From NCBI RefSeq assembly GCF_000153345.1, contig NZ_CH724125.1, positions 1,511,021 through 1,550,774 on the forward strand: DNA of 39,754 nt, read 5' to 3'. The notes beneath the pieces were generated by a model that searched no databases, had not been told where the DNA came from, and saw only the letters and a list, made by a program, of their open reading frames with translations. The translations under genes were made by a program, and so were the position numbers. This document shows, one piece after another, positions 7,383-34,105 of the stretch; the stretch's first letter is position 1; every line of letters begins with the position of its first letter. This DNA comes from Neptuniibacter caesariensis (GTDB lineage Bacteria > Pseudomonadota > Gammaproteobacteria > Pseudomonadales > Balneatricaceae).

Positions 7383-9419
7383 ATGCTGTCTTGGATAACT
7401 CCCTTTTTTGGTGCAAGTATTATTTCTGTATCACTTGCATTCGTATTTGCTATTCAGTTTTATCGCAAACGTAGCTGCTATTCCCTTACACTGGCTGCAC
7501 TTTTCAATTCATTTTGGCTGTTTAGTCTATCCCCTTCTGACGGAAACCTTAATTTTCAGGGTAGCCTAAGTCTTTTTTTCGAGTGCATGCACTACAGTAT
7601 CTGGATACTGGCAATATCACGCGCCTTCCCTGAATCCAGTTCACAAGAACAACTAAAAGTTCATCAAAGCATTTTCTGGCTTGCCTGGGGTATTACCCTA
7701 TCTGTTTGCTTACTCCCTTACCTTGGTATAACAATCAACCCCGCTTTAGGCAGTCTGCTAGCACTGGGACTCACTTTTTCCACTATTTGGTGCACAGAAA
7801 AGCTTTATCGCTTCAGCAGTCATGACAGGCAAATTAAAATGCTGAGTATCAGCATAGGAATTCTGCTCTTCTATGATCTGTTTTATCACTCTTACTCAAT
7901 GTTTGATTCCAGTAATAAGGTAGAATTAACCCACTTACGCGCATCCGTGTATCTAGCGGCCTGCTTTATAATGGCCATAGGTTTGATGGTTCTACCTGGG
8001 TCACATGAAACACCCCCTTCTACGATAAAACTATCTCAGAAAGCCGCTTTTTATGGCTCAACTCTTTTAACGTCTGCTCTTTTATTAACCCTGATTTTTC
8101 TGGGTGGATACTATATTCAAAGCCTAAGCGGAAGCTGGTTAAACACACTGTTTATTTTTGTAACTTTTACGGCCGTTTTTGCCATCGTAACGGTTTACAC
8201 ATCAAGAAAAGTTCGCGCAGAAATAGTTGTATTTATTAACAAGCACTTTTATAGCCATGTATACAACTATCGGGAAGAGTGGCTAAAAATCAGCAATATC
8301 CTTTCTCAGAACAGCGATAGATCTCCCTATGAACTTTCGCTAGAGATCATGACAAAAGCATTTAATTGCGATCACGGCATGATCTGGGTGAAAAGCGACT
8401 CTAGCTTTACCCCCAAATTTTCTACGAAAGACTTTGGTGATATCAATCTGCTTGCGGAACCAGCAGACTCAGAATTTGTAAACTGTATGATTCATCATGA
8501 TTGGATCTTTTACCCTGCTGCGACTTGCTCTGAAGAGATAGGAGCACACAATAACTCACTACCAGCATGGGCGCCTGACATCCCAGACCTATGGATTATC
8601 TCGCCCCTTTTAACCAATAATGAAGTCATTGCTTTTGTTGCGCTAACCCGTATTCAGGACCAACGCCCCACCTGGGAGGATTTGGATTTACTCAGAACAA
8701 TCGGCTCACAGCTAGCCGCCCACATTAAACTGCATATACAAGAAGAAAAGCTGGAAGAACAATTGCAGCTCAATGTCTATAACAAGCTGAGCTCATTTGT
8801 TATGCACGATCTTAACAACCTGATTGCTCAACAAGATCTGGTCGTTAAAAATGCAGATAAGCATATTTCAAATCCCGCTTTTGTTGCCGACGCGATCAGC
8901 ACTGTTCAAAACTCCGTAAAACGGATGAAAGCACTGTTATACAAGTTAAAAAGCAATAAACCTGAAGATCTGGAACAAACCAATCTTCAAAAGGTTATTA
9001 AACAGGCCATACAACACAATATCAATAACACTCCTCATCCTGAATTAAGCTATTCCGGAAGCGATTTCACTGTTCTGGCAGATAAAGAGCGGTTGATGAT
9101 GTCTATTTCACACCTCATTAAGAATGCTCAAGACGCCACACCGGATGACGGCAACATTTTCATCGATGCAACCCAAACCGGAAACAAGATCTACCTTGTA
9201 ATCCGCGATACTGGCGTGGGTATGAGCTCAACCTTTATACGAGACAAACTCTTCAAGCCTTTTGAATCCACAAAAACAGACCTTGGAATGGGAATTGGTG
9301 TTTATCTGACCCGTGACTACATACAGCAACTGGGCGGAAACCTTGCAGTCAGCAGCCAACCTGGTAAAGGCACCACTTTCAAAATTGAGCTAGCACATTT
9401 TAGTGATACATATGAATAA
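7383..9419 (+). CDS. prsK: Exosortase-system sensor histidine kinase PrsK
   Basis: Membrane histidine kinase of exosortase/PEP-CTERM exopolysaccharide systems, phosphorylating PrsR. The 678 residues comprise an N-terminal set of about eight to nine membrane helices (roughly 1-275), a GAF-like region (about 300-440) and a cytoplasmic kinase core. The phosphoacceptor is His475 in FVMHDLNN; ATP-binding motifs follow (N box HLIKNAQDATPDD, G1 DTGVGMS, then KPFESTKTDLGMGIGVYLTRDY). The signal sensed is unknown. Its stop overlaps the PrsR start region, giving a coupled two-gene unit. The ribosome site at the ATG is weak. Confidence 0.94.
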   Translation: MLSWITPFFGASIISVSLAFVFAIQFYRKRSCYSLTLAALFNSFWLFSLSPSDGNLNFQGSLSLFFECMHYSIWILAISRAFPESSSQEQLKVHQSIFWLAWGITLSVCLLPYLGITINPALGSLLALGLTFSTIWCTEKLYRFSSHDRQIKMLSISIGILLFYDLFYHSYSMFDSSNKVELTHLRASVYLAACFIMAIGLMVLPGSHETPPSTIKLSQKAAFYGSTLLTSALLLTLIFLGGYYIQSLSGSWLNTLFIFVTFTAVFAIVTVYTSRKVRAEIVVFINKHFYSHVYNYREEWLKISNILSQNSDRSPYELSLEIMTKAFNCDHGMIWVKSDSSFTPKFSTKDFGDINLLAEPADSEFVNCMIHHDWIFYPAATCSEEIGAHNNSLPAWAPDIPDLWIISPLLTNNEVIAFVALTRIQDQRPTWEDLDLLRTIGSQLAAHIKLHIQEEKLEEQLQLNVYNKLSSFVMHDLNNLIAQQDLVVKNADKHISNPAFVADAISTVQNSVKRMKALLYKLKSNKPEDLEQTNLQKVIKQAIQHNINNTPHPELSYSGSDFTVLADKERLMMSISHLIKNAQDATPDDGNIFIDATQTGNKIYLVIRDTGVGMSSTFIRDKLFKPFESTKTDLGMGIGVYLTRDYIQQLGGNLAVSSQPGKGTTFKIELAHFSDTYE

Positions 9420-10776
9420 TATTGATCAACCTACAATCCTAATCGTTGAAGACGATGAGGGACTATTAAAGCAGCTCTGCTGGCACTTCGACCAATATGA
9501 AATAATTACAGCAAGCACCCGCGCGGAAGCACTAACGGCAGCTAAGCAGTACACCCCGACCATTATTTTACAGGACTTAGGGCTTCCTCCTGACCCTGAT
9601 GGAGTCTCAGAAGGCATGAAGTGCATCCAATCATTACTTAGCCTTCAACCCAATTGTAAAATTTTGGTCATGACAGGGCGCTCAGAAGAAAAAAATGCTC
9701 TGAGAGCAATTGAATTAGGGGCTTATGACTTTTTCCCTAAACCAATCAACACTGACACACTCGATCTAATTATTGAGCGAGTTATTCGAGTTCATTCGCT
9801 CGAAGAGAAAAACAGACAAAAACGTATATCATCTTCAAGCAGCATCCCAAACCTTATTACCGCAGATCCAACCATGCTGGATGTTTGTAATCTAGTAAGA
9901 AAAATCGCCCCTACACCTATTACATGTACAATTCTTGGCGAAAGCGGTGTGGGCAAAGAAGTAATCGCCAAAGCTCTTCACAACCTTAGTGAGCGGGCTG
10001 ATAAACCATTCATGGCCATTAACTGTGCTGCAATACCTGACAACCTCATGGAAAGCGAGCTATTCGGTTATGAAAAAGGTGCGTTTTCAGGCGCGATAAA
10101 ACAAACCATAGGGAAAATAGAAGCCGCTGAAGGCGGCACACTCTTTCTTGATGAAATCGGCGATATGCCGCCAAGCCTTCAGGTTAAGCTATTACGCTTC
10201 CTTCAACAGCGAGTGATACAACGCGTAGGGGGAGTAAAGGAGATTGAGATCGATGTCCGGGTTGTATGTGCCACAAACAAAAATCTCAAGTCCATGATCG
10301 AGTCAGGCGATTTCAGGGAAGACCTGTTCTATCGTATTTGCGAAATGGAGATAGACATCCCTCCCTTGAGAAACAGACAAGGCGACAAGACTCTTTTAGC
10401 ACGACATTTTCTGGATCGAGTAAATCAGGAAAACAACCTGAATATCAAAGGATTCACTGAAGAGGCGCTCAATGCCATTAATCAGTATGACTGGCCCGGC
10501 AACGTCCGCGAAATGGAGAATCGCCTAAAAACCAGCGCTATCATGTGTAATAACAATTATCTGGGTATGGATGAACTGCTTATAGAGCAAAAAGCAGAAG
10601 GGGTATCAACCGACCAACTCAAAACGTTAAAAGAAACTCGAACACATGCTGAAATTGGGGCTATAACTCAAGCCATTGCCGCTACTAATAATCTATCAGC
10701 AGCAGCAAAACTTTTGGGTATTTCAAGGCCAACCCTATATGACATGATTAAAAAGCATGAGATCCCTCTAAGCTGA
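9412..10776 (+). CDS. prsR: Sigma-54-dependent response regulator PrsR
   Basis: NtrC-like activator of exosortase systems. Receiver domain at 1-120 with acceptor Asp55 in LQDLGLPPDPDG, AAA+ domain at about 140-380 with Walker A GESGVGKE and Walker B GGTLFLDEIGDM, and a Fis-type helix-turn-helix at the C-terminus (AAAKLLGISRPTLYDMIKKH). The sigma-54-contacting loop reads GAFSGA (223-228) instead of GAFTGA. The ATG at 9412 gives the family N-terminus and overlaps the prsK stop; a GTG at 9403 in frame is the alternative. A sigma-54 promoter before the VPVPA-anchor gene at 31.7 kb is the obvious target. The 3' end overlaps the convergent ATPase gene by nine bases. Confidence 0.95.
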   Translation: MNNIDQPTILIVEDDEGLLKQLCWHFDQYEIITASTRAEALTAAKQYTPTIILQDLGLPPDPDGVSEGMKCIQSLLSLQPNCKILVMTGRSEEKNALRAIELGAYDFFPKPINTDTLDLIIERVIRVHSLEEKNRQKRISSSSSIPNLITADPTMLDVCNLVRKIAPTPITCTILGESGVGKEVIAKALHNLSERADKPFMAINCAAIPDNLMESELFGYEKGAFSGAIKQTIGKIEAAEGGTLFLDEIGDMPPSLQVKLLRFLQQRVIQRVGGVKEIEIDVRVVCATNKNLKSMIESGDFREDLFYRICEMEIDIPPLRNRQGDKTLLARHFLDRVNQENNLNIKGFTEEALNAINQYDWPGNVREMENRLKTSAIMCNNNYLGMDELLIEQKAEGVSTDQLKTLKETRTHAEIGAITQAIAATNNLSAAAKLLGISRPTLYDMIKKHEIPLS

Positions 10777-11676
10777 GGTCAATGCGTCTAATCGTTCAGA
10801 ACCTAAAATGGAGTTTTGAGAAGGGAGTTTGGAAGCTCCCTTCTTTTTCGGTTCAAAGCCCAGAGCTAGCAAACCACCCTCAGCCCTGTCTTTTATAACA
10901 CTCACGATGTAACGTTCATCAATTTCCTGTTTGCCATCAGCAAAACCATAGGAAAGCACTGTATCGCAAATCACATTAATGACCCGCGGAACACCATCGC
11001 TTAAGTAGTTAATCATGCCCAGAGCTTTGACTGTAAATAAAGGCTCTGAACGGCCTACCGCTTTAAGGCGATGCTCAATATATTTAGCCGTTTCCCCCCG
11101 ATCCAAAGAAGGAATATGATAATCAACAGCGATTCGCTGAACAAACTGCCGTAAGTTGGGGTGTTTTAGCTTATCCCGAAGTTCAGGCTGACCCACCAAG
11201 ATAATCTGCAACAACTGGTCTGCACCAAAGTTCACATTGGAGAGAGTTCTCAGTTCTTCAAGCAAGCTCAAAGAAAGATTCTGCGCTTCGTCTACGACGA
11301 GAATAACCGTATGACCTTTACGTTTCGATTTTATAAGGAAGTTCTTAAAAATGTCATACTGCTTAATCTGACTTTCCGCGCTGTAATCTAAGCCAAAAGC
11401 ATGTAATACCCAGGGTAAAAGGTCACCCATATTTTCGTGAGTATGGTTGATACACCCCAGCACCTGCCGAGAGCCTATGCCCTCTAAAACACGGGCCAGG
11501 AGAGTTGTTTTACCACAGCCAATTTCACCCGTAATTACAGTAAAACCGGCCTGGTTCAACAACCCATACTCAAGCATAGAGTACGCCGCAGTATGCACCC
11601 CCCCCATATAAAGAAGTCCCGGGTTGGTTTGCAGGGTAAACGGTTTTTCTTTGAATCCGTAAAACGCTTCGTACAC
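10768..11676 (-). CDS. Exosortase-locus ATPase (ExeA/GspA-like AAA+)
   Basis: Cytoplasmic AAA+ ATPase of the ExeA type routinely found in exosortase exopolysaccharide loci (XrtA-associated ATPase family); its exact task is unknown. The 302-residue protein starts MYEAFYGFKEKPFTL, the ExeA-type N-terminus, with Walker A GEIGCGKT at 50-57 and Walker B VILVVDEAQN at about 124-133. The start is GTG at 11676 with GAGGT seven bases upstream. It is the last gene of the minus-strand string, 16 bases after prsT, and its tail converges with prsR. The C-terminal 25 residues are low in complexity and carry the opposite-strand terminator. Confidence 0.92.
   Translation of the reverse strand: MYEAFYGFKEKPFTLQTNPGLLYMGGVHTAAYSMLEYGLLNQAGFTVITGEIGCGKTTLLARVLEGIGSRQVLGCINHTHENMGDLLPWVLHAFGLDYSAESQIKQYDIFKNFLIKSKRKGHTVILVVDEAQNLSLSLLEELRTLSNVNFGADQLLQIILVGQPELRDKLKHPNLRQFVQRIAVDYHIPSLDRGETAKYIEHRLKAVGRSEPLFTVKALGMINYLSDGVPRVINVICDTVLSYGFADGKQEIDERYIVSVIKDRAEGGLLALGFEPKKKGASKLPSQNSILGSERLDALTSA
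10820..10848 (+). terminator. Terminator of prsKR located inside the convergent ATPase gene
   Basis: GAAGGGAG (10820-10827) and CTCCCTTC (10836-10843) form an eight-pair stem with an eight-base loop, followed by TTTTT on the plus strand. It is 44 bases after the prsR stop but lies within the 3' coding part of the opposite-strand ATPase gene, where it encodes the KKKGASKLPS stretch. Confidence 0.75.
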
Positions 11677-11692
11677 TGAATTACCTCTATCG

Positions 11693-14062
11693 CTACATCT
11701 GATCTACGATTTTAGACACTTCATCTTCCCACAAGTGCGTTTCGCTTTTAGCAAGTTCCAATGCTTTTTCCAGTTCTTGCTTAGCACGAACAGATTCGCC
11801 AGCAGCCCTATAACTCATTCCCAGATGATATCTAAATTCAGCAAATTCAGGCATAGCTTCAACCGCACTTTCATGATAATAAAGAGCATTATTAGTGTCC
11901 CCTTCTAAATAGTAGATCCAGCCGAGGGTATCTAAAAAGTATGGAATTTTAGAGTTTCTAAAACGCTTTGCTAAAGACTTTGCACGCTTGAGATCAAGAT
12001 GTTCATCGGAGGATAGAATTACTGCAAGATTATTTGCAGCAATATCAAAATTGGGCTTTTGTAATAGTAGCTTTTCGTAGGTTTTAATCGCACCCAAGAA
12101 GTCACCTCGATTCTCCTGCAGACCAGCTTTGTAAAGTTCAAGTGATAGACTATCATCAACGTTTACTATCCCTCTATCTAAGACTTCTAAGGCTTCACTT
12201 ATTCTGGATTCCCTACTTAGAAAGCCAGAAAGTTGTCGATAAAAAGTTCCTTCTTTAGGATAGTTGTTCATACCTTCAACCAGCAGTTTCTCCGCTTCCT
12301 CCCTTTTATCAATAAGGAAGTAAACCTGAGCTAGCAAAGATAGAGCCTCCCTGTTATCAGTATCTTTTTCTAATACGGACTTCAAAAAGCTAACCGCATT
12401 ATCTATTTGCTTTGCCGCCACATATGAACCAACAAGTGCTCTCATAGGCTTTACTTTACTCTGAGAAGCCTCATACGCGCGCTCAAAAGCCTCAATACTC
12501 TCTAAATTCCTCTTTTGGCCCAGCAAAGCTGCCCCACGTATCTGTTCAGCTTCATCCGCTTCAATATTCAGTTTATCGATACGATCTGCTATTGCTTGAG
12601 CTTCACCCCATTTTCTTAGCGTAAGCTTTACCTGAGCGGATATTTTGAGAGCATTGATATCACGTGGATTAAGATGGAGGTATTTTTCAATTACACTTTC
12701 TAACTTCGTATATTGCCTTTGCGATAAGAGGATCTTTGCATAAGACTCAAGAATCAATTTATTACCTGAGTCTACCTCATAAGCCTGACTATAGTGATCG
12801 AGTGCTAGCTCAATTTTACCTTGCGCCTCATGAGCCTGGCCCAATAAGCCTAATATAACACTTGATGAAGGGTTATCTCGCAAGACTTCCCGAAGAGTGG
12901 AAATAGCCTTAGCTAAATCCCCCTTTACCATTGATCTTTGAGCATTCAATACGATAGCTTCCTGATTGCTTTTATCCAGCACTAATACCTGCTTAACGTA
13001 TTGGTCCCCAGAAGAAAGATTTCCTGCTTGATATTCAATTTTTGCCAGATGATTTAAAGCTTTTAAGCGAGCTTCCTGGTTGCTGAAAGCTGCAATTTTC
13101 AAAAGCAGCTCTTTCGAGTCATTCCCGTGAGGGGATTGCTCGTAAAGCTCAACTAACGCAAAATTAAGTTTAAGATCTTCAGGATGATAAATAAGTTCCT
13201 GCTTAATTAGCGCTACCGCCCTACCAAGCCCATAGAACTCCTTTAAAAAATTAGCATAAGAAAGTTTAACTTCTATATTATCTGGCAAGTCAGTCAAGGC
13301 TCGTTGCAAAACCTGATCCGCTTTTTCCCTTTCCCCGAAAAGAAGAAACTGTTTTGCCAAAGCCAAATAATATTTTTCGTCTTGAGGATACTGTTTAATT
13401 AACTCTTCAAAGGTTTGAGTCGCTCCGGCTAAATTTTTCTGCTCATTAAAGGCTCTTACCTTCATAAGTTGAACAAGAATGTTATCTTGCTTGTCTGCTT
13501 CATTTAAATAATCCAAAGCACCTAATGAATCACCTGCCTTCAAGCGCTCTGAAGCTAGCAATAATATGGCATCAATATTCTCAGGATCAATTTTCAGGGA
13601 CTCAAGCGCTTCTCTGACTCCCCCTTCAGCATCGCCTAGTTTAAAAAGCACAACCGAGTGAAAAGACCTTACTTTTGCGGAACCAGGTGCGACTCTCATT
13701 GCTTTTTCACTACGCTCCAGTGCTTTATCCAATTGCTGGGCCGTTAATTCAATTCCACCAATTGCAACTAACGCATCCACGTGATCAGGCTGAAGCTCTA
13801 TCACACGCTCAAGATACCTATGAATTTTTGCCCAATCTTTTTTTTGCTCAAACACTTTTGTAACTTCGTAAAGCGCCTCTACATGATTAGGATTTATCTG
13901 CAATGCATTACGAAACTCTATATGCGCAGCTTCATAATCACCTTTTGCGATATGCTCTTTAGCATTGGCAACATATACAGCGACCTTTTCATCCGCAGAC
14001 TGGCAGGCAGTCAATGCCAGACAACTAACGAGCATCAACACTTTCAATTTCTTATTAAACAT
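11693..14062 (-). CDS. prsT: TPR-repeat lipoprotein PrsT
   Basis: Large tetratricopeptide protein typical of exosortase exopolysaccharide loci, presumed to scaffold export or assembly in the periplasm. The N-terminus MFNKKLKVLMLVSCLALTAC has a lipobox with Cys20, predicting lipid anchoring. From about residue 30 to the end (789) it consists of consecutive 34-residue helical repeats with patterns such as ALQINPNHVEALYEV and AVEAMPEFAEFRYHLGMSYRAAGE. Length is a little under the roughly 900 residues common in the family. A good ribosome site (GGAGAAGGAT) precedes the ATG, 43 bases after the exosortase gene. Confidence 0.92.
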   Translation of the reverse strand: MFNKKLKVLMLVSCLALTACQSADEKVAVYVANAKEHIAKGDYEAAHIEFRNALQINPNHVEALYEVTKVFEQKKDWAKIHRYLERVIELQPDHVDALVAIGGIELTAQQLDKALERSEKAMRVAPGSAKVRSFHSVVLFKLGDAEGGVREALESLKIDPENIDAILLLASERLKAGDSLGALDYLNEADKQDNILVQLMKVRAFNEQKNLAGATQTFEELIKQYPQDEKYYLALAKQFLLFGEREKADQVLQRALTDLPDNIEVKLSYANFLKEFYGLGRAVALIKQELIYHPEDLKLNFALVELYEQSPHGNDSKELLLKIAAFSNQEARLKALNHLAKIEYQAGNLSSGDQYVKQVLVLDKSNQEAIVLNAQRSMVKGDLAKAISTLREVLRDNPSSSVILGLLGQAHEAQGKIELALDHYSQAYEVDSGNKLILESYAKILLSQRQYTKLESVIEKYLHLNPRDINALKISAQVKLTLRKWGEAQAIADRIDKLNIEADEAEQIRGAALLGQKRNLESIEAFERAYEASQSKVKPMRALVGSYVAAKQIDNAVSFLKSVLEKDTDNREALSLLAQVYFLIDKREEAEKLLVEGMNNYPKEGTFYRQLSGFLSRESRISEALEVLDRGIVNVDDSLSLELYKAGLQENRGDFLGAIKTYEKLLLQKPNFDIAANNLAVILSSDEHLDLKRAKSLAKRFRNSKIPYFLDTLGWIYYLEGDTNNALYYHESAVEAMPEFAEFRYHLGMSYRAAGESVRAKQELEKALELAKSETHLWEDEVSKIVDQM

Positions 14063-14105: not shown

Positions 14106-15677
14106 TCATTGGGGTAAAAAATGTCCGATGGAGCCTGACATTCCCCTTATAAAATTTTGCAACTGGATATCAGCCGCCAAAAAATCCTGATCACTTACAA
14201 CAATATTGACTCGAACCAATGAACCATCTGAACGGTTTTGCATAACCGCATTTTTGATCAGAGAAGCTCTGGCCAAATACTCATTGGTATATGAAACGCC
14301 CATCTGATCGATCCAGTAATAAACCAACTGAGTGAGTTCGCCTTTACGGATAACCACCCTATTCACCTCAAGGTCACCACCATTGAGGTTAAAAGCCTCT
14401 ATACGCTCATCCTCAACAACCCACCCGCCTCCGGGGATGCAGACTTTAGGGGAATGCAAAGCACTTCCATCCTTTTGTTGCGCGTAATAGACCATATATA
14501 ACCCAACTGGGTTATCCACTTTGTTGTGATAGCTACCAATGAAGTAATCATCTGGTTTGAGAATATCCAGCACATCCTGGCCAAAGGAATCTAAAACAAC
14601 ATTACGACCATCAATCCGCATGGGAAACTCAGCGAATAAGCTGCGCTCGGGAACCCTTAACTCTGAATTAAATGCGAGGTAGAGTGCACTACCGCCAATG
14701 AAAAAGGTCAGAGCAATTGCACTTAAACATGAGCGCAAAGAGAGCTGACTAACAACGCTTTTTTCAGAAGATTCAGTGGAACTAAAATCAAAAAGGTCAT
14801 GAAGCGAACCTTTTCGAATAAAAATAGCTTTAAACAACCACACCTCTGCCATAAGGCAGACAAAAGCAGCAAGAAAAACTACCCATCCTTCGAAATCGTG
14901 TAAAAAACCTTCTGCTACTTCATTTCCATACTGATTTACTAAAACTCCGGTAATGGCTATCCGCAGGCTGTTCATAAAAATCGTGACCGGAATGGTGGAT
15001 AGCACAATAAATGCCTTGAACCAAAGCGGAGTTTTTAGAAAATAGGCTACAAGTAAAGAGATACTAAGTAAGGGATAGAGATAACGAAGGCCACTGCAGG
15101 CTTCAACCACTTGAAGCTTATAGGTCCCCATATCAATAATGTTACCCTCCAGAAAAACAGGAATGCCAAAAAAGCGTATCAGTCCGGTACCCAATTCAGA
15201 AGAAACAAGCTGCAAACCCGCTGTTAAGGAGGAAATCAGAAGGTAGGGCAGTGGAATCACTAGAAATAATAACAGCAGAGGAGTTAGGGCTATTTTTAGA
15301 AAACGAAAACCACCGTACAAAAGTATTAAACCGGACAATGCTATACAAAAGCTGTAATGCTTTATCGACTCGATATCCGCTAACGTCGCCGCTAACAAAA
15401 GAGACAACGCCGCCAACAGCATAAAAATACCAAAGACAGAAGATTGCAGGGGTTCCTTCGCTAAAAACGGCAACTTCCTGTATATCATGTACCCCACAAC
15501 AAAAGGCATGAACAAGCCATGGCCATATTCAGGGCTATTCCACCATTGCTCGAACAAATTAACCAGACTTGGCGCATAAACGCAGAAAACTAGTGCGCCT
15601 AGCGCAAAGAAATAGCGTGAGTCTATGTTTTTCGCTGTATCAGCGGGCTTTGTTTCCGTTTGTACAGTCATGACCAT
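14106..15677 (-). CDS. Exosortase with fused EpsI-like domain (XrtA/XrtD type)
   Basis: Inner-membrane cysteine transpeptidase that processes proteins bearing a C-terminal PEP/VPLPA-type anchor. Residues 20 to about 295 form eight or more helices with the three conserved residues Cys194 (VVEACSGLRYL), Arg239 (FMNSLRIAI) and His260 (FLHDFEGW). Residues about 320-523 form an EpsI-like periplasmic domain containing HSPKVCIPGGGW. Because the only substrate in the window ends in a VPVPA motif, the XrtD (VPLPA-specific) class, which has this fused architecture as I recall it, fits best; XrtA is the alternative. Start chosen at ATG 15677 with AAGGA five bases ahead; a TTG at 15680 and an ATG at 15671 are alternatives. 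Overlaps pssE by about 38 bases. Confidence 0.93.
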   Translation of the reverse strand: MVMTVQTETKPADTAKNIDSRYFFALGALVFCVYAPSLVNLFEQWWNSPEYGHGLFMPFVVGYMIYRKLPFLAKEPLQSSVFGIFMLLAALSLLLAATLADIESIKHYSFCIALSGLILLYGGFRFLKIALTPLLLLFLVIPLPYLLISSLTAGLQLVSSELGTGLIRFFGIPVFLEGNIIDMGTYKLQVVEACSGLRYLYPLLSISLLVAYFLKTPLWFKAFIVLSTIPVTIFMNSLRIAITGVLVNQYGNEVAEGFLHDFEGWVVFLAAFVCLMAEVWLFKAIFIRKGSLHDLFDFSSTESSEKSVVSQLSLRSCLSAIALTFFIGGSALYLAFNSELRVPERSLFAEFPMRIDGRNVVLDSFGQDVLDILKPDDYFIGSYHNKVDNPVGLYMVYYAQQKDGSALHSPKVCIPGGGWVVEDERIEAFNLNGGDLEVNRVVIRKGELTQLVYYWIDQMGVSYTNEYLARASLIKNAVMQNRSDGSLVRVNIVVSDQDFLAADIQLQNFIRGMSGSIGHFLPQ

Positions 15678-16161
15678 CAAAATCCTTTTTCAGAAAATCC
15701 TGTATTCTATTTACCAGACCTGATGAGACTTCAAGTTTTACTGCTTCATCATTCTCGCTACGCTTTAACAATGTTTCCATCACTGCAAAAAAATCTTCAT
15801 TCGAGTCGACAATATTAACGCTAGGCAGTGTGCCAAATTGTTTAGCCGTCGCCAGTTGGTGATCATTTCGATGCTCACCCTTTGCCGCATGGCGAGGCAT
15901 TAACACCAATGGTTTAGCATGTTTAACACCGGAGATAATGGTGCCCATACCCACATGACCAATAATTATATCAGCGCGGGAGAGCCAATCATCATACTCT
16001 GTTGGCGACATGCTGATCGTAGTTCTAAAGTGCGAAGGCTTATACTTGGTCTGTCCAACCTGAGCAAACACTTCTTGATCAGGATGTTCAGCCACCCATG
16101 CATCGACAGTCTCTAGCAAGCGTTCGAAAGGTAACTGTGTACCGACAGTGACAAAGATCAT
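15640..16161 (-). CDS. PssE-like glycosyltransferase subunit (GT28 C-terminal domain)
   Basis: Catalytic, nucleotide-sugar-binding half of a split glycosyltransferase resembling PssE/Cps14G and eukaryotic Alg13. The 173 residues begin MIFVTVGTQLPFERLLETVD and include the donor-site region ADIIIGHVGMGTIISGVKHAKPLVLMPR, typical of GT28-family C-terminal domains. It needs the membrane-associated PssD-like partner encoded directly upstream, with which it shares an ATGA stop/start overlap (16158-16161). It should add one sugar to the lipid-linked repeat unit; donor and acceptor are not readable from sequence. Confidence 0.9.
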   Translation of the reverse strand: MIFVTVGTQLPFERLLETVDAWVAEHPDQEVFAQVGQTKYKPSHFRTTISMSPTEYDDWLSRADIIIGHVGMGTIISGVKHAKPLVLMPRHAAKGEHRNDHQLATAKQFGTLPSVNIVDSNEDFFAVMETLLKRSENDEAVKLEVSSGLVNRIQDFLKKDFDGHDCTNGNKAR

Positions 16162-27070: not shown

Positions 27071-27886
27071 TCAATATACATAAACTTTTCTATGATCAAC
27101 TTCCTTATTAAGCACTGTACCTAGCAATGGTTTTTCTTTTGCAATAAGCATAGAACTTTCAATCTCTTCGCGTGTATTTTTTCCACTTTCTACAACCAAT
27201 AAAGAGCAATCAACATAGGGAAGGAATACCATCACATCATCTGATACCAGTAGTGGTGGCAGGTCATAAATCACAATCCTTGACTCGTACCTATTCTTTA
27301 GCTCTTCTGTTAATGCCTTCACCTTGGGTGATGCAAGCTTTTCAGATGAATTCAGCATACGCTTTCGTCCAGGGATAATAGAAAGGCGTTCAACCCCTGG
27401 GTTAATTAACATTTCCTTTACACTGACATCATTCTCAATATAATCCTGCACCCCATATTCGGGCTCTATAGAAAAGTATTTATGTAGTGACGGTTGGCGA
27501 AGGTCCATATCAACAATAAGCACCGTCTGATTCACTTCCATCGCAATGCTCATCGCCAAATTAACCGTGACTAATGACTTGCCAGCCCCTGGTGTCGGGG
27601 CGGAAATAGCCAGACTGTTCCAATTATTATCGCGTAATTCTTTTAATACCTTTGCTCTCAACATATGAAACGGCGTTGAGCGAGGGTCTTCTTTATTCTG
27701 TGCAATGACCCGATTCGCGGTTAACGTTTCATTAGAAACATTAACAACTTTAGTCGTTGTATAAGTAATCGACTCGTGACCACTGCTATCTGCTTGAATC
27801 GGTTTACGGCTAACCTGCTCAATCTCTTTTTCAACGAGCTGATTCTGTTTAGCGTGTTTAACTACATCTGCAATTGTTGCCATCAT
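27071..27886 (-). CDS. Exopolysaccharide tyrosine autokinase (CpsD/CapB type)
   Basis: Cytoplasmic BY-kinase that phosphorylates its own tyrosine tail and works with the chain-length protein to control polymer export. Motifs: Walker A APTPGAGKS (96-104), Walker A' VLIVDMDLR (122-130), Walker B RIVIYDLPP (203-211). Unlike many relatives, the C-terminal tyrosine cluster is very short (HRKVYVY, Tyr269 and Tyr271 only). The 271-residue protein is separate from its activator, which is the gene just upstream (seven-base gap). AAGGGA precedes a double ATG; the second, at 27883, is an equal start candidate. Confidence 0.93.
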   Translation of the reverse strand: MMATIADVVKHAKQNQLVEKEIEQVSRKPIQADSSGHESITYTTTKVVNVSNETLTANRVIAQNKEDPRSTPFHMLRAKVLKELRDNNWNSLAISAPTPGAGKSLVTVNLAMSIAMEVNQTVLIVDMDLRQPSLHKYFSIEPEYGVQDYIENDVSVKEMLINPGVERLSIIPGRKRMLNSSEKLASPKVKALTEELKNRYESRIVIYDLPPLLVSDDVMVFLPYVDCSLLVVESGKNTREEIESSMLIAKEKPLLGTVLNKEVDHRKVYVY

Positions 27887-27893
27887 CTATCCC

Positions 27894-29423
27894 TTACGAC
27901 ACGCCTAATTTATACATCAGTTTGTACATCAACATATCCAGAGGCTGGTACAAAAAGTGAGTAGCAATAACTATCGATACAAACCCTAATAAAACAGCGA
28001 TTATTGCCTTTATTTTCCGATTTCGCTGACGCTGTAGCTCCTCCTCAGTTTCAATAACGCCTATCACGACCAGCGGCGCATGCCCTGTAATCATCTCGAT
28101 TGAATTAGCCCCTCGAATCGATTTATCCATAAACGCTAAACCAATGACTAGGCCCAGAGGTAGAAACAAAGAAGCAGCAAATCCTGCAGCAAGAAACTTC
28201 TTGCGATCCGGTTTATATGGTTGATCTGGAAGTAATGGCGGTTCCAGTATCGAGAAACGTTCTGCTTTCCTACCTTGCTCTAGGCTTTCAGCCATCTGAG
28301 CTTGCATAGTGTTACCAACTATCTGATCATATTGCTCTTTTACTGCTTCATAATCCCTGTTTAAACTCAGCAAGCCTCTTTCAACTTGAGGTATATTGAT
28401 GATCCTCTGCTGAAGGCTTGAGATCTGCTCATCAATCTTTTCGCGCTGCTCTACTAACAATGCAATCTGGCTTTTTGCAGCAGTTATCTCCTGCCTGACT
28501 AATGAGTTTGCCGTTCTTCTGGGTGCTGCAGTTTTTAATTGATCAATCTCGCTTCTTAAGGTAACCAGATCGGGATGGCTCTCTGTATACTGCACTGAAA
28601 GCTCGTCATATTTTTTACGTAGATTATTTAAGCGCACCTGTTGTTCAGAGATGCCGCCCGACGACCGCGTCTGAAGCTCTAATAATGATTTTTGGCTTTT
28701 TACAGTTTCTAATTGTCTGGCAACTTCAACCCTAGAATTTTGTGCCCGCTCTAACATCGACATGTAAAGATTTAGATGTTCCGGCAGCGATTCTTTGAAC
28801 TGTAATTTATAGTCGGCTATTGCCTGTTCTGTACCTGCTAACTTTTGCTTAAGTTTTTCCGCCTCATGCTGTAAAAAATCGGTTGTTTCTGAAGCTCTAG
28901 CCGTTCTAGCTTTGACATTTTCATCTAGGAACAATGTCACAAGGTCATTTGTGACCGATTGCGCAACTGAGGGGCTAAGTGCATCGAAAGCGACTTTGAA
29001 AGCAATAGTTGTTGCATGCCTTCGTCTTGAATTTTTATTTCCGCTTATTAATTGCACGGTAATTTTGCTGCGCATATCCGATACAAGATCAGAAATTAGT
29101 GGGCTTCTGACCCCATCTTTTAATGAAGGGTGTTTATTTGCGATCTCCAGGAGTTTATCCCTTGTCATCACTCGCTGTTTAATGATCTGGATTCGTTCAG
29201 CCGCGATTGAAGTGACCGTAGAGCGTACTAGATCATCGGGTATTTGTTGGGTTTCAACTAACACGATACCTTCAGAGCGATATACTGCTGGGATAATTGA
29301 AACCACTATGGAAGCGAGCGCAGCAAGCACAACTACACCCAATACAATCCACACTTTGTATCGTGAGAGCGCAGCTATATAGTTAGTAGGGATTTGCAAT
29401 TGATCGTCTTCGTCGTACGACAC
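27894..29423 (-). CDS. Polysaccharide chain-length determinant (Wzz/GumC-like)
   Basis: Polysaccharide co-polymerase of 509 residues. First helix at about 29-50, a long periplasmic segment with strong coiled coil (about 175-390, with EKLKQKLAGTEQAIADYKL and EQREKIDEQISSLQQRI), the proline-rich LEPPLLPDQPYKPDRKK, a helix at about 413-436, and another hydrophobic stretch near 477-496. The last helix is extra compared with the classical two-helix Wzz. No kinase domain is fused; the kinase is the next gene. It sets polymer length and recruits the kinase. Confidence 0.92.
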   Translation of the reverse strand: MSYDEDDQLQIPTNYIAALSRYKVWIVLGVVVLAALASIVVSIIPAVYRSEGIVLVETQQIPDDLVRSTVTSIAAERIQIIKQRVMTRDKLLEIANKHPSLKDGVRSPLISDLVSDMRSKITVQLISGNKNSRRRHATTIAFKVAFDALSPSVAQSVTNDLVTLFLDENVKARTARASETTDFLQHEAEKLKQKLAGTEQAIADYKLQFKESLPEHLNLYMSMLERAQNSRVEVARQLETVKSQKSLLELQTRSSGGISEQQVRLNNLRKKYDELSVQYTESHPDLVTLRSEIDQLKTAAPRRTANSLVRQEITAAKSQIALLVEQREKIDEQISSLQQRIINIPQVERGLLSLNRDYEAVKEQYDQIVGNTMQAQMAESLEQGRKAERFSILEPPLLPDQPYKPDRKKFLAAGFAASLFLPLGLVIGLAFMDKSIRGANSIEMITGHAPLVVIGVIETEEELQRQRNRKIKAIIAVLLGFVSIVIATHFLYQPLDMLMYKLMYKLGVS

Positions 29424-29461: not shown

Positions 29462-30937
29462 TTAATAAGCTCGGCTATTAATTAACGTCAACGCAGTGCG
29501 GATCATAATCATAATATCCAGCGATACAGACCAGTTGTTGATGTATTCAAGATCACTTTCAACACGTTTACTCATCAGTTCCAACTCCTCTGTTTCACCG
29601 CGAAGCCCACGAACCTGAGCCAGGCCTGTAATGCCCGGCTTAATGCGGTGCCTACAGAGATAGGCGTTAATTTGTGTAGAATAAATCTGGTTGTGTTGAA
29701 CCGCATGAGGCCTGGGCCCTACCATTGACATGTTACCGATCAGCACATTAAACAACTGCGGCAGCTCATCGATACTGGTTTTACGAATAAACCGGCCGAC
29801 TGGCGTAATGCGATCATCATGACGGGTAGCCTGGGTCACCTTATCCGGTTCTTCCTGATGAACCTTCATGCTTCTGAATTTCCAGATCATGAACTCTTTG
29901 CCATCCCAGCCTGTGCGCGGCTGCCTGAAGAAAACCGGCCCAGGCGATGTCAGCTTTATCGCCAACGCGGTCCCGAGCATCAGCCAAGACAATGCCAATA
30001 AAGCAATTAGAGCCAATACCTTATCCACAACCGCTTTTTTTAGATGATGGGTACCAATTAATGGTGTTTCTGACAGGGTCAATACTGGATAACCTGCCAG
30101 TTCTTTAACACTCGGATTAATTAACTGCAGTTCATGAATATCAGGTATCCAATGCACATCAACATTCAGCTCCATCAGCTCTTTATAGAGGTCCTGAACC
30201 AAGGCCAGATTATTAAAAGGCAAAGCCAGATAAACTGAACGAATGTCATCATTGCGAATAATCTCTTTCGCTTTATTTATTGAGACATTGCATAGAAAAT
30301 TATCGGGTTCGCTCAGGCTAGAGAGTTCAATACACGCGGAGACTTTCTCTCTGACCCACGGATTGTTGTTTATTCTTGTTTTCAACCTATTAGCAAAGAC
30401 CTGATCACCTATGACCAACGCATTAACCTTTGCTTTTGATGAACGAATCAGATGAAAACGCCGCAGAAAAAGATGCGAGAGCAACTGCAAGGTAAACGCA
30501 GCAACCGAGAACGGTAGGATAAAATCAGGCGCCAGCCCATCTAATGCTTCGAGCAGATAAATAAACGCCAGTGAAATCGCCAGTGAGAAGCACCAGGCTT
30601 TAAGAAGATCGAAGCTTTTGCCTAAATTTGAACGATTTTTACGATAAATACCCATTCCATCGTAAATAACCGCCATAGAGCCCATTAACAATAGAACGAA
30701 AATCACATGGCTATAGAGCAGTACGCCCTGAGTGTACTGAACAAAGCCAACAAACAGACACAATACCAAAAAGGCATCCAATAGCGCCTGAAACATATTG
30801 GTCAGGGAATTCCTCCGCTGTAATAACGGCCGTCCCACCTTAATCATACCTTCAATATCTTCCATGTATCCCTTTGCCACATTATGTGATCCATCTGGAA
30901 GGGAGCCTCCCCCCAACCAATTTTCCAACACCGACAC
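29462..30937 (-). CDS. Initiating polyprenyl glycosylphosphotransferase (WcaJ-like)
   Basis: Transfers a sugar-1-phosphate, commonly glucose-1-P from UDP-glucose, to undecaprenyl phosphate to begin the repeat unit. N-terminal four-helix region (about 45-165), a Rossmann-like middle region (VNALVIGDQVFA), then the catalytic bacterial sugar transferase domain: FFRQPRTGWDGKEFMIWKFRSM, IRKTSIDELPQLFNVLIGNMSMVGPRP and GITGLAQVRGLRG. First gene of the long minus-strand string. The start is uncertain: GTG at 30937 or 30931 (AGGA upstream), or ATG at 30865 with AAGGG just ahead; all keep the recognised domains. Confidence 0.94.
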   Translation of the reverse strand: MSVLENWLGGGSLPDGSHNVAKGYMEDIEGMIKVGRPLLQRRNSLTNMFQALLDAFLVLCLFVGFVQYTQGVLLYSHVIFVLLLMGSMAVIYDGMGIYRKNRSNLGKSFDLLKAWCFSLAISLAFIYLLEALDGLAPDFILPFSVAAFTLQLLSHLFLRRFHLIRSSKAKVNALVIGDQVFANRLKTRINNNPWVREKVSACIELSSLSEPDNFLCNVSINKAKEIIRNDDIRSVYLALPFNNLALVQDLYKELMELNVDVHWIPDIHELQLINPSVKELAGYPVLTLSETPLIGTHHLKKAVVDKVLALIALLALSWLMLGTALAIKLTSPGPVFFRQPRTGWDGKEFMIWKFRSMKVHQEEPDKVTQATRHDDRITPVGRFIRKTSIDELPQLFNVLIGNMSMVGPRPHAVQHNQIYSTQINAYLCRHRIKPGITGLAQVRGLRGETEELELMSKRVESDLEYINNWSVSLDIMIMIRTALTLINSRAY

Positions 30938-31010: not shown

Positions 31011-31036
31011 AAAAGAGGGCATGAAGCCCTCTCTTT
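31011..31036 (-). terminator. Probable terminator after the VPVPA-anchor gene
   Basis: AGAGGGC and GCCCTCT form a seven-pair stem with a five-base loop, followed on the minus strand by a short U4 run. It is about 25 bases past the stop and isolates this gene from the wcaJ-like gene downstream on the same strand. Confidence 0.65.
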
Positions 31037-31061
31037 TGTAAAACGCTTAAAGCTATAGTAA

Positions 31062-31679
31062 TTAGGACACCTTACGGCGCGCAGAGAAACCTGCGAAGCC
31101 TAGCAGAGCCGAACCGAATAGCAGCGCCGCTGCTGGCACTGGCACTGGAGAAAGATTACTGACAGTAAGCTTGGAACCTACTACATCATCATTCACATCA
31201 ACAACACCAATAACATAAGTCACAAAACCATCAGCAATCGCAGTCCAGCTAAATGAACCTGTCGACAATGCGCCATCATTCAAAACAGTCGCCAGTAGCG
31301 GTGTAATCAGGCCTGACTGACTCAGAGACACGAAGGCAAAGTCATTGTAAGTAATACCAGCAGCAGGCTCATCAGACTCCCAAATCCAATCAAAAGTGAT
31401 TGACTGGCCAGCCTTTACATCAGCTGTATATTTAATTGCTGAGCCTTCTACCACATCAAGACCTGATGCAGAATCTAGGTACCCAGGGAGAACACCTGCA
31501 AAATTTTCCAAATCAGCCTGACTGACACCTGTCACTGCTGAAGGGCTATAACCACTGGATACCACATAGTCCCCACCAATAGTAGAAACATCACCAATGG
31601 ATACTGCAGCCGCATTCACACCCACGGCGGCACACGTCAAAAGAGCGCCTACTAAAACCTGTTTAACTTTAGAGAACAT
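31062..31679 (-). CDS. Secreted protein with VPLPA/PEP-CTERM-type sorting anchor
   Basis: Predicted substrate of the exosortase. Signal peptide at 1 to about 23 (MFSKVKQVLVGALLTCAAVG...VNA), a 155-residue beta-rich extracellular region without cysteine, then the tripartite sorting signal from 179 to the end: VPVPAAALLF (motif), a hydrophobic helix, and the basic tail SARRKVS. The motif is of the VPLPA class more than the PEP class. It is the only such protein in the window. A near-consensus sigma-54 promoter lies upstream and a terminator downstream, so it is a single-gene unit controlled apart from the biosynthetic genes. Function of the exposed domain is unknown. Confidence 0.92.
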   Translation of the reverse strand: MFSKVKQVLVGALLTCAAVGVNAAAVSIGDVSTIGGDYVVSSGYSPSAVTGVSQADLENFAGVLPGYLDSASGLDVVEGSAIKYTADVKAGQSITFDWIWESDEPAAGITYNDFAFVSLSQSGLITPLLATVLNDGALSTGSFSWTAIADGFVTYVIGVVDVNDDVVGSKLTVSNLSPVPVPAAALLFGSALLGFAGFSARRKVS

Positions 31680-32202
31680 TTGTTAACTCCATTCTTTTTA
31701 ATTTTCTTTATATCGCAGCTGTTTTGCAAACTGCTCCACAACTCATATTCCTGACACAACAGGCATAGCAAACCACGTACCAACTAAAAAAAAACCTTAA
31801 AAATCAAGAAGAAAAAACAAAAAATTAGACTATTAACCAACCCGCCTCTTTTTTTAGTGACCATATCCACCACGCCATGTAAAAAAAGCCGACAGCAAGC
31901 CACTCCCTCATTAGAGTTACTGTCTACCCAACTCTGTTACTGACGCTTTTTGTTAATAGCTGCATCTCCCACTCAAACAAAACAAGCACTTAGCGTCACC
32001 AGCACCGACGTCGGTTTTTTTTACATTCCTACTGTCGGTTTTTTTTACATTAGAAAAAGATTATAAATCTGCCTAATTTCTACTTTACACGAGGTTAAAT
32101 TTGCGCAGAAAATACAGCTATTCTTTTATCGCACGCTATATTCGGGCCGGAAGAAATACGCAGGATTCGCGCCCCATCAGGGTTAAGCAAAGGACAATTG
32201 CA
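31680..32202. promoter_or_regulatory. Divergent control region between the anchor gene and the Wza-like gene
   Basis: This 523-base gap has no gene. It holds the sigma-54 promoter on the minus strand, an AT-rich stretch (31784-31860), and on the wza side a palindrome ACCGACGTCGGT (32004-32015) overlapping the first of two exact 18-base direct repeats (GTCGG, T8, ACATT; 32010-32027 and 32034-32051, period 24). A looser relative, CTGACGCTTTTTGTTA, lies near 31940. These are good candidates for activator sites, possibly of PrsR acting in both directions. I see no sigma-54 promoter facing wza and no convincing sigma-70 boxes. An open frame from 32101 into the wza gene has no ribosome site and is taken as leader. 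Confidence 0.6.
31767..31783 (-). promoter_or_regulatory. Sigma-54 (RpoN) promoter of the VPVPA-anchor gene
   Basis: Read on the minus strand, TTGGTACGTGGTTTGCT matches the -24/-12 consensus TTGGCACG-N4-TTGCW with one difference (T for C after GG) and exact GG-to-GC spacing of 12. Transcription would start near 31756, giving a leader of about 75 bases. PrsR, the sigma-54 activator in this locus, is the natural activator. Confidence 0.8.
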
Positions 32203-32814
32203 ATGAATAAACGCTCAACACTACTCACGTTCGCGCTAATTAGCCTGGCTGGCTGTACTTCAACTAAACAAACCTTTGTCGCTCCTGAGGCATATAGTGC
32301 TCCGGCTTCCGCATATGCAATAGGGAATGGAGACAGACTTGATATCCGGGTCTGGCGAAATCCGGACCTTTCCGTTGTCACACCAGTCCGACCTGATGGC
32401 ATGATATCTGTGCCACTAGCAGGTGAAGTGCAAGCAACTGGTAAAACTGCAGAAGAGCTTAAAGCGGAAATTAGCAGTAAACTTAATGACTATTTAAAAC
32501 AGCCGAATGTGACAGTCATTGTCACCGAAGCTAATAGCATTGCCTTTACACAACGGGTGAGGATTACCGGAGCCGTGGGCAATCCGTCCTCAACGCCATG
32601 GCGCCAGGGCATGACCGTGCTGGATCTGGTTTTACTCGCAGGAGGCTCCACCGAATTTGCCGATGAAAACAAAGCACGCCTTTATCGTAAAACACAAGAC
32701 GGGATCCAGACCTACCCCATCTACCTGGAAGACATTTTCAAACAAGGCAAACTAGAAACTAATTACGAGCTAGCGCCGTCTGATATCGTTTCCGTTCCTG
32801 AACGCTTCTTCTGA
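32203..32814 (+). CDS. Wza-like polysaccharide export lipoprotein
   Basis: Outer-membrane export protein of the Wza/GumB/EpsE kind. The start is ATG 32203 with AAGGA upstream, giving MNKRSTLLTFALISLAGC with a lipobox Cys18. Then the poly-export domain (YAIGNGDRLDIRVWRNPDLSVVTPVRPDGMISVPLAGEV) and one SLBB-like region (VRITGAVGNPS...MTVLDLVLLAGG). At 203 residues it is the short GumB-like form, without the long C-terminal helix that spans the outer membrane in E. coli Wza. It begins the plus-strand pair with the EpsL-like gene, divergent from the biosynthesis genes. Confidence 0.93.
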   Translation: MNKRSTLLTFALISLAGCTSTKQTFVAPEAYSAPASAYAIGNGDRLDIRVWRNPDLSVVTPVRPDGMISVPLAGEVQATGKTAEELKAEISSKLNDYLKQPNVTVIVTEANSIAFTQRVRITGAVGNPSSTPWRQGMTVLDLVLLAGGSTEFADENKARLYRKTQDGIQTYPIYLEDIFKQGKLETNYELAPSDIVSVPERFF

Positions 32815-32833
32815 TCAGCCTTAGGCATAGCTA

Positions 32834-34105
32834 ATGTTACAGAAAACTATTTCAGCTTTTTTAGGCGCTATAGCTCTAATCCCTCTCTCTAGCGCCATTC
32901 ACGCTGAGACCGAGTTAGAACTGAAACTTGAATCTGGCTTCAGCAATAACGCCAACAAGACAAATAAAGCAAACGCCATTAAAGAAAGGCAAGATGTCGT
33001 TACTGCGCGGATCAAAAGCAGCCGAATAAACAGCACATCCAGTGCCATTGTTGATTACTCAATCGAACATGAGAATTACAGTAAAGATTCTCAGGAGAAT
33101 GAAACCAATCTTGAGGGCAGTGCAAGCGCTAGATTTAACCTTTCCCCCAACCTAAAGGTCAATTTAAATCACAGCGCCAAACGTCTGATCAACAACCCCT
33201 CTGAAACGGCCATAAGTAACAATCTGCAAAACCGAAATATCTTTTCTGCTTCCGTAGACGCTAAATTCCATGTCACCCCGCTCCAGGTGGTTACTGTAAC
33301 CCCTTCTTTAGCGGCTATTCGATATAGCGACGATAATAATCAGGATAGCGATCGCGCAACTCTTGATATGAGTTGGGTTTGGAGGTTACAAGAAAAAAGC
33401 CGAATCAAAATCAACTTGCAGAATAGTGAAATTGACTACAGATCTGCTGCGAACCAAAGCTACCAACAGCTAACCCTCGGCTATGAACGCGAGAACCGGC
33501 TACTAACCTACTCTGCTGAAGCTGGAGTCAATCGATTCACGACTAGCTCAGGGAGCAAAAATGGCCCGTATTTCAACCTACAAGCCACATATGATAACCA
33601 AGGCCATAAATTTTCCATTAACGCAAGACGTCAGCTTACCGACACCTCATTTGGTAACGGTAATCAGAACCTGACATCATCAAGCAACATAGATAGTGCT
33701 GGTACCAACATTGACCAGATCGAGCAGGATTCATTTATCCTCTCCTACAGCTCCAGACTCCTTTGCGTACGTTGCAGCTTCAAAGCACAGACAGAATTTA
33801 AAGACGAAACGCATGTAAACAATCCACAAGAGTCATTAAATGAAAGAATAATCGCTTCCAGCATCAGATACTTACTGAATGAACGATCTAACCTAAGTAG
33901 TTCTATCAGCTTAAAAGCCACTGAGTACAAGCAAGGCGATAGTCGGGATTTTGATGAGCTTTCAGCACGGCTTGGTTATGAACTCTCTCTTAGCAAAGCC
34001 AGTTCATTAGAGCTGTTTTCTGAATATGAAACCAAAGATGCATCACAGCCAATAAATGACTATTCAGAGTTAATTTTCGGTCTGTCTTTTATTTATAGGC
34101 TGTAA
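32834..34105 (+). CDS. Outer-membrane beta-barrel protein of EPS locus (EpsL-like)
   Basis: A 423-residue secreted protein: signal peptide to about residue 25 (MLQKTISAFLGAIALIPLSSAIHA), then alternating short hydrophobic/polar strands consistent with a beta barrel of about 16-18 strands, ending with a terminal aromatic strand (SELIFGLSFIYRL), the usual barrel-assembly signal. Families of this kind (EpsL, or the PEP-CTERM-associated outer-membrane proteins) regularly sit beside the Wza-like gene in exosortase loci and probably form or assist the exit channel. One CVRC motif near residue 312 might form a disulfide. No terminator is evident before galU. Confidence 0.82.
   Translation: MLQKTISAFLGAIALIPLSSAIHAETELELKLESGFSNNANKTNKANAIKERQDVVTARIKSSRINSTSSAIVDYSIEHENYSKDSQENETNLEGSASARFNLSPNLKVNLNHSAKRLINNPSETAISNNLQNRNIFSASVDAKFHVTPLQVVTVTPSLAAIRYSDDNNQDSDRATLDMSWVWRLQEKSRIKINLQNSEIDYRSAANQSYQQLTLGYERENRLLTYSAEAGVNRFTTSSGSKNGPYFNLQATYDNQGHKFSINARRQLTDTSFGNGNQNLTSSSNIDSAGTNIDQIEQDSFILSYSSRLLCVRCSFKAQTEFKDETHVNNPQESLNERIIASSIRYLLNERSNLSSSISLKATEYKQGDSRDFDELSARLGYELSLSKASSLELFSEYETKDASQPINDYSELIFGLSFIYRL

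Follow-up and report, generated by a model that had tools for sequence, protein, structure and literature searches.

Is the cluster of exosortase and exopolysaccharide (EPS) genes in Neptuniibacter caesariensis a self-contained regulon with a single dedicated substrate, as an earlier note on this DNA proposed, and is it a system of a new kind? We have analyzed a stretch of 39,754 nucleotides from this bacterium (the window, by which the whole stretch is meant), in which the locus spans ~27 kb. The locus is a compact instance of a kind of system that has already been described. Its exosortase is of the XrtD type, and the genome encodes two detectable client proteins with VPLPA-CTERM tails, one resident in the locus and the other ~640 kb away at dusA. 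The reading as an XrtD-type exosortase/EPS system whose regulon, apparently closed, consists of these two clients has a probability of roughly 0.8 in our judgement.

Open reading frames (ORFs) of the window were taken from all six frames and scanned with NCBIfam and Pfam profiles, individual proteins were searched against PDB, and curated cut-offs decided the equivalog calls. Most of the earlier gene calls are upheld by these profile scans (Table 1). PrsK, PrsR, XrtD, WcaJ and the export protein all score over their curated cut-offs; the first two are the sensor kinase and sigma-54 activator named in the earlier note, and the last is one of its export proteins.

One exosortase and two clients

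A genome-wide profile search of the N. caesariensis genome (3.92 Mb in 6 contigs) found a single exosortase gene. We class the locus under XrtD because this protein scores 634 bits with TIGR04152 against a cut-off of 400, while the XrtA model TIGR03109 gives 174.9 bits against 208. The EpsI-like fusion that had been recognized earlier is borne out by a DUF3485 match. Motifs whose Cys, Arg and His are given as the catalytic residues of exosortases by Haft et al. 2006 (PMC1569441) are all present (ACSG, Cys195; NSLR, Arg240; LHDFEGW, His261).

The VPLPA-CTERM profile TIGR03370 finds two tails at E≤10, those of the resident protein and of an ORF at C5:899521. The latter scores 26.3 bits, over the cut-off of 25.35, and counts as a VPLPA client. 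A clade tail profile of 22 rows, both of these clients included, finds the same two tails at E≤10 and none more. Two weak PEP-CTERM matches, one at C5:1825226 and one at C5:1118172, were rejected, as their motifs are not C-terminal and start 96 and 183 residues ahead of the stop. At present the best reading is that there are only two clients. The earlier claim of exactly one anchored protein thus holds within the locus and fails for the genome, where a search for further substrates and exosortases returned a second VPLPA protein and no further exosortase: two clients and one exosortase, not many substrates and several exosortases.

XrtD is patchy within the family, occurring in 8 of 116 genomes, this one included. 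The other eight XrtD genomes that we compared have between 1 and 7 TIGR03370 matches each at E≤0.1; the six tails of G082 lie on two look-alike contigs (8% contamination). Ten genome handles stand for nine genomes, since G116 duplicates G042. G318 likewise duplicates G117, and G042 falls in the same family grouping as N. caesariensis. Loci L036-L038 yielded no tail by regular expression and were excluded afterwards.

Predicted enhancers and sigma-54-like sites

A 17-nt motif, TGTAAAAAAAACCGACA, was derived by eye from the upstream regions of both clients. In the 3.92-Mb genome it is found with at most one mismatch at five sites, all upstream of the two clients, and at no site with two mismatches; the 18 sites with three mismatches resemble background, with 23 sites in all against 22 for the reversed control. 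Read on the other strand, the motif is a 17-mer that closes with TTTACA (type TGTCGR-N5-TTTACA). Haft et al. 2006 (PMC1569441) describe, together with PrsK, PrsR and PrsT, a 17-nt motif 1 that ends in TTTACA, is the predicted PrsR site and is followed by a -24/-12 element. Because length, TTTACA end and layout agree, we equate our predicted PrsR site with their motif 1.

The sigma-54 promoter that had been proposed for the resident client fits its pattern exactly. As a lone site it is not beyond chance: the pattern occurs with at most one mismatch in 43 of 100 window shuffles, and its three exact matches genome-wide are equalled by three in the reversed control. We credit the site at 31767-31782 because it lies behind the enhancer motif and because the same layout is seen in relatives.

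These relatives comprise four genomes with PrsR (G009, G042, G065 and G117) and four without (G079-G082); PrsR is over its cut-off in exactly the first four and N. caesariensis itself (G000). Sites that match TGTAAANNNNNYCGACA exactly adjoin a VPLPA gene in 4 of 4 cases in G000, 5 of 5 in G065, 2 of 2 in G009, 1 of 2 in G042 and 3 of 3 in G117, which makes 11 of 12 in the other PrsR-bearing genomes, where the test is independent, and 15 of 16 with G000 included. In G065 the resident gene is split between contigs, and one of the sites adjoins its N-terminal part, with the tail on another contig. None of the nine exact sites in G079-G082 is near a VPLPA gene. With one mismatch allowed, the motif is present within 600 bp of 16 of the 18 clients in PrsR-bearing genomes (not G065 C249 or G117 C1) versus 0 of 4 in PrsR-less genomes. 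A sigma-54-like site (at least 8/12) starting at about -40 to -125 accompanies 14 of the 18 (not G065 C272, G065 C249, G009 C45b or G042 C5a), where ~0.05 per gene would be expected from background. This promoter scan covered 22 client genes, 18 and 4 in the two groups, with G065 C157 and C233 outside it. Motif 1 and sigma-54-like sites upstream of clients, PrsK and PrsR equivalogs and the single exosortase support the exosortase/EPS regulon of the earlier note.

The enhancer-promoter spacers of 13 client genes in the five genomes cluster at 62 and 73 nt (null p about 0.009, post hoc); as a sign of helical phasing this is only suggestive, with the copy hand-picked in two genes.

Several points weigh against a closed regulon of two clients. 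The assembly is 98% complete, and TIGR03370 sweeps omit some tails of relatives (G080, G081) that a regular expression detects. The resident protein itself misses the TIGR03370 cut-off (22.1 bits, E 0.001; 19.2 bits in another scan). The presence of the motif at the two N. caesariensis clients is partly by construction, as it was read from those regions, and the search of this genome covered up to three mismatches to its own A-rich version; variants at core bases fall outside that scope and further PrsR sites are possible. Among the relatives, G079-G082 are of one genus and provide a single contrast, not four. The exact-pattern totals, 16 in PrsR-bearing and 9 in PrsR-less genomes, are little above the reversed controls of 9 and 6, so that the motif evidence lies in the position of the sites. 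Spacers average 77 (standard deviation 16, n=13) against 62.8 in Haft et al., and the spacer in the window, 95, is slightly above the published maximum of 92. The PrsT-like protein, the ATPase, the chain-length determinant and the tyrosine kinase match models of the XrtA system below cut-off. Lastly, the EPS genes, possible read-through aside, turned up neither an enhancer nor a sigma-54-like site: in the divergent region of the window no sigma-54-like site (at least 8/12) faces wza, and the two reversed motif copies stand there without a recognizable promoter of their own. For this reason it is not established that polymer and protein are regulated together.

For the two-client system we propose the following mechanism. 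PrsK would sense an envelope cue and phosphorylate PrsR, which would bind the enhancers upstream of both clients and activate sigma-54 RNA polymerase at the -24/-12 sites. The clients would be exported by way of their signal peptides and retained in the inner membrane by a tail of VP(L/V)PA motif, transmembrane segment and basic end. The Cys/Arg/His site of XrtD would then cleave the tail and hand the protein to an acceptor, and the processed client would end with the exopolysaccharide, the product of the surrounding WcaJ, Wzx, Wzy, chain-length determinant and Wza genes. One client would have a fixed place heading the EPS operon and the other would be an add-on at dusA. Neither the stimulus of PrsK nor the acceptor that receives the sorted protein had been identified in the account of Haft et al. 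2006 (PMC1569441).

The same account already contains PrsK/PrsR/PrsT, motif 1 with a sigma-54 site, and a genome, that of Rhodospirillum rubrum, with one PEP-CTERM gene and repeated motif 1, and the combination that the earlier note held to be new is not. Our locus shares with the PEP-CTERM/EpsH system described there the regulators, the sometimes repeated 17-nt motif with its -24/-12 element and the EPS neighbourhood; unlike the system as presented there, it has XrtD, a VP(L/V)PA tail, motif copies in reversed orientation as well, and a resident tail without tryptophan. It resembles the TIGR04152/TIGR03370 type in the score of its exosortase, the fused EpsI domain and a single exosortase with VPLPA clients, and differs in that the resident client has a tryptophan-less variant tail below cut-off. 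In Aquincola tertiaricarbonis RN12 (PMC9850573), experiment showed a role for PepA and PrsT in keeping the polymer bound. There, too, a client gene (RpoN-dependent in that case) is reported to be preceded by a predicted enhancer and separated from the next gene by a hairpin, although the RN12 locus is of the PEP-CTERM type and has another gene order. With a single exosortase, two clients and five enhancer sites mapped, this is a very small regulon of its kind, which could let polymer, anchor and signal be told apart.

The tail of the resident client

The 27-residue tail of the resident client was compared with those of EPS-locus clients in the four other PrsR-bearing genomes. They share the pattern VP[VI]PAAA[LI]LFG[ST]AL-x-GFAGF-x-ARRK[VIA][SA], and 20 of the 27 columns do not vary among the five sequences. 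Between N. caesariensis and G009, which is of another genus, all 27 residues are identical while 19 of the 27 codons are synonymously changed; synonymous and non-synonymous changes number 16 and 1 against G065, 18 and 4 against G042, and 12 and 6 against G117. The body of the G009 protein is weakly like that of the resident client (shuffle Z 3.1), and the bodies from G042 and G117 are not detectably alike (Z 1.6 and 1.9); a control pair for which kinship is not expected, G117 against the second N. caesariensis client, gives Z 2.5. On these comparisons the tail looks to be under per-residue purifying selection beyond that on its cargo. Conservation of a tail whose body aligns poorly or not at all beyond the genus is the part that we have not seen described before: in the literature we noticed no paper on exosortase tail subtypes, and for XrtD/VPLPA one incidental mention. 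The pattern could reflect unusually strict recognition by XrtD, another partner or a signalling peptide, and the tail may act in a sequence-specific way.

The alternative to an ordinary sorting tail would be one whose every residue is recognized by a dedicated partner (a second mode of XrtD, PrsT, the ATPase, or PrsK sensing the released peptide), while the body changes freely with the polymer. The identity with G009 despite so many changed codons, beside bodies as unlike that of N. caesariensis as those of G009 and G042, and the 20 invariant columns speak for this, save that the five tails are perhaps one orthologous gene and hence non-independent, that the G117 gene is counted as EPS-linked without wcaJ adjacency in the data, and that the G065 body (same genus, 45% over 155 residues) suggests bodies that may be fast evolving and not swapped. 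Tryptophan is absent from all five resident tails and present in 14 of the 15 dispersed tails of the same genomes, the exception being G065 C33 (Fisher p 3.9e-4, kinship not corrected), and the tryptophan-less resident tails occur together with PrsK/PrsR, while the locus tail of PrsR-less G080 has tryptophan. When locus proteins are aligned to G009, 20 of 7,625 windows of 27 residues are identical throughout (9 in the chain-length determinant, 10 in GalU and one the tail), but PrsK, XrtD, the tyrosine kinase and WcaJ reach 26 of 27 in their best windows, which places the tail among the most conserved segments and not alone. We regard a dedicated reader of the tail as a tentative possibility. 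A more specific form, in which the tail is an information-bearing peptide that is clipped by XrtD (or docked) and reports exosortase/EPS status, for example to PrsK, so as to tune the regulon, is doubtful. The tail result opens the question of whether the tails of exosortase clients convey information as well as anchoring the protein.

In an order-level sample at least 37 of 390 genomes match the tail profile at E≤1e-6. Among the matches listed, scores above 50 bits belong to N. caesariensis and G318 (same place as G117) only, both of which are in the profile; G009, G042 and G065 have no matched row, presumably because this sample did not include them. Tryptophan is present at this place in 26 of 30 loci, and the four without it are N. 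caesariensis, G117, L163 (ALLFL) and L155 (AFLFG). A plasmid search with the resident tail gave no match. Six genomes of group f41/g105, with one match each, were considered as a possible independent resident lineage and rejected: they have an alike client, with a conserved body and a tail of the tryptophan type, no other window gene was matched in the 16-36 kb available per genome, and a search within 500 bp gave no enhancer motif. In PrsR-less G080 (L121:1-4820) three VPLPA proteins surround wcaJ/wza and end in V-WLFGSVL tails, which differ from the A-WLFLTGL or A-WMFLAGI tails of two other G080 clients and are perhaps another locus-specific tail subtype.

The resident protein as a client

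It is very unlikely that the cluster is an ordinary EPS operon in which the VPVPA protein is merely membrane-anchored and unprocessed by the exosortase. In favour of that reading, the protein scores below the TIGR03370 cut-off, and control genomes match that profile too, 7 of 14 at E≤10 (none over cut-off) and 1 of 14 at E≤0.1. Against it, the resident protein reaches an E-value of 0.001, has the top score in its genome under the clade tail profile that contains it (E 2.7e-17), and keeps its place heading an XrtD EPS operon in G000, G009, G042 and, over two contigs, G065. Its predicted structure has a predicted local distance difference test score (pLDDT) of 48, too low for a structural search.

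The second client at dusA

The second of the two clients in our preferred reading lies in a 1.46-kb insertion between two direct repeats, which span the region upstream of dusA plus the dusA 5' end. Its ORF is intact (213-218 codons), and upstream there are two enhancer copies and a sigma-54-like site, TGGCCTTAATTTTGCT (9/12), at the usual distances. That this gene, for all its remote setting between repeats, is a dead or unrelated copy and the resident protein the single dedicated substrate is very unlikely given its intact frame, over-cut-off tail and regulatory sites. The 5' ends of dusA genes are a documented target of islands (Farrugia 2015, PMC4482086). The insertion resembles the islands of that report in its site, and differs from them as described there in its size, its 144-nt terminal repeats and the lack of a visible integrase: by eye, no listed ORF near the second client looked like one. 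A unit that brings its own enhancers and sigma-54-like site could enter the regulon from any position.

Organization of the locus and its variable genes

The features of the locus are summarized in Table 1.

Table 1. Features of the exosortase/EPS locus and of the second client region. Positions are those of the window unless another sequence is named.
Feature	Position	Strand	Evidence
PrsK sensor histidine kinase	7383..9419	+	TIGR02916 443 bits, cut-off 300 (over)
PrsR sigma-54 activator / response regulator	9403..10776	+	TIGR02915 617 bits, cut-off 503 (over)
ExeA-like ATPase, XrtA-type associated	10768..11676	-	TIGR03015 265 bits, cut-off 324.5 (below)
PrsT-like tetratricopeptide repeat protein	11693..14062	-	TIGR02917 251 bits, cut-off 312 (below)
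XrtD exosortase, C-terminal EpsI (DUF3485) domain	14106..15680	-	TIGR04152 634.4 bits, cut-off 400; PF09721, PF11984
PssE-like glycosyltransferase subunit	15640..16161	-	NF041548 90.6 bits, cut-off 120 (below); PF04101 over cut-off
PssD-like (Alg14-type) glycosyltransferase subunit	16158..16601	-	NF041549 81.9 bits, cut-off 110 (below); PF08660 over cut-off
GT2 glycosyltransferase	16613..17560	-	PF00535; listed start overlaps next gene, true start probably internal
GT2 glycosyltransferase, second	17439..18398	-	PF00535
517-residue protein, signal-peptide-like N-terminus (by eye)	18415..19968	-	family-less
Putative AsnB-like protein	19935..21296	-	LTGGRDSR motif in translation, by eye only
Wzy-like polytopic membrane protein	21293..22615	-	9 hydrophobic segments
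FrhB/FdhB-like protein	22617..23858	-	PF04432 and PF04422 over cut-off; PDB relatives 8riu, 8rja
Hexapeptide acetyltransferase	23827..24561	-	PF00132 over cut-off; true start probably internal
Wzx-type flippase	24440..25825	-	PF13440 and PF01943 over cut-off
Polysaccharide pyruvyl transferase	25832..27061	-	PF04230 117 bits, over cut-off
XrtA-type tyrosine autokinase	27071..27886	-	TIGR03018 164.5 bits, cut-off 230.65 (below)
Polysaccharide chain-length determinant (PCP)	27894..29423	-	TIGR03007 235 bits, cut-off 279 (below)
WcaJ initiating glycosyl-phosphotransferase	29462..30937	-	TIGR03023 435 bits, cut-off 411 (over)
Hairpin between client gene and wcaJ	31014..31032	.	7-bp stem; passed the scan on + strand only, not the genes' strand
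Locus-resident VPLPA-CTERM protein, 205 residues	31062..31679	-	TIGR03370, clade tail profile, conserved place
27-residue resident tail without tryptophan, VPVPAAALLFGSALLGFAGFSARRKVS	31065..31145	-	five-genome tail comparison
Sigma-54-like -24/-12 element TGGTACGTGGTTTGCT (TGGTACG-TGGT-TTGCT)	31767-31782	-	exact fit to TGGYACGNNNNTTGCW; 11/12 to TGGCACGNNNNTTGCW
Predicted PrsR enhancer (motif 1), facing client promoter	31878..31894	.	17-nt motif
Predicted PrsR enhancer (motif 1), opposite orientation	32009..32025	.	17-nt motif
Predicted PrsR enhancer (motif 1), opposite orientation	32033..32049	.	17-nt motif
Wza-like EPS export protein (XrtA-type)	32101..32814	+	TIGR03027 198 bits, cut-off 180 (over); likely ATG at 32203
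Outer-membrane-barrel-like protein	32834..34105	+	PF19089 weak, below cut-off
galU, pgi, ugd sugar-nucleotide genes	34180..38216	+	same order adjoining the locus in G009
Direct repeats around second client	L126:3144-3287 and 4605-4748 (own genome C5)		144 nt, 96%

PrsT and the ExeA-like ATPase, as named in the earlier note, prove to be related to TIGR02917 and TIGR03015 without reaching equivalog level; the ATPase is probably the XrtD-lineage counterpart of the XrtA-associated one. The complete Wzx/Wzy pathway that had been called is sustained for Wzx by Pfam, while the Wzy-like protein has no match in the NCBIfam and Pfam scans and is recognized from its hydrophobic segments alone. Of the polymer genes, the pyruvyl transferase, acetyltransferase and FrhB-like calls stand; the AsnB-like protein has no match in Pfam, NCBIfam or PDB. 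The 517-residue protein has no relative in NCBIfam or Pfam and merely two PDB matches (E 0.45 and 0.5), and its single-sequence fold prediction, with a pLDDT of 32, is likewise too poor for a structural search.

Gene order is collinear with G009, in which it runs prsK-prsR / ATPase-prsT-xrtD-pssE-pssD-gt2a ... gt2b ... frhB-acT-wzx-pyrT-tyrK-pcp-wcaJ-client / wza-barrel-galU-pgi-ugd, with 59.5% identity for XrtD and 68% for PrsR. In G042 the client likewise lies between wcaJ and the divergent wza, and G065 has the same arrangement split over two contigs; a barrel-like gene stands beside wza in all three of these genomes. Genes like those for FrhB, pyruvyl transferase, acetyltransferase and Wzx recur in G009, and the first two also in G117. 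Variation of the inner genes is typical of Wzx/Wzy loci. In the centre of the locus, the genes for sugar modification have the look of a variable, exchangeable cassette, and the specific matrix that had been suggested that of this strain's variant of it. Among the papers searched, none joins pyruvyl transferase, F420 hydrogenase and exopolysaccharide.

An extra VPLPA gene is present in G009 between prsR and the ATPase gene (L108:9685-10365), with one copy of motif 1 at -65. In the window, the 3' ends of prsR and of the ATPase gene, on opposite strands, overlap at 10768-10776. The hairpin between the client gene and wcaJ is a possible attenuator; five such hairpins occur in the region, against 1.8 in shuffles.

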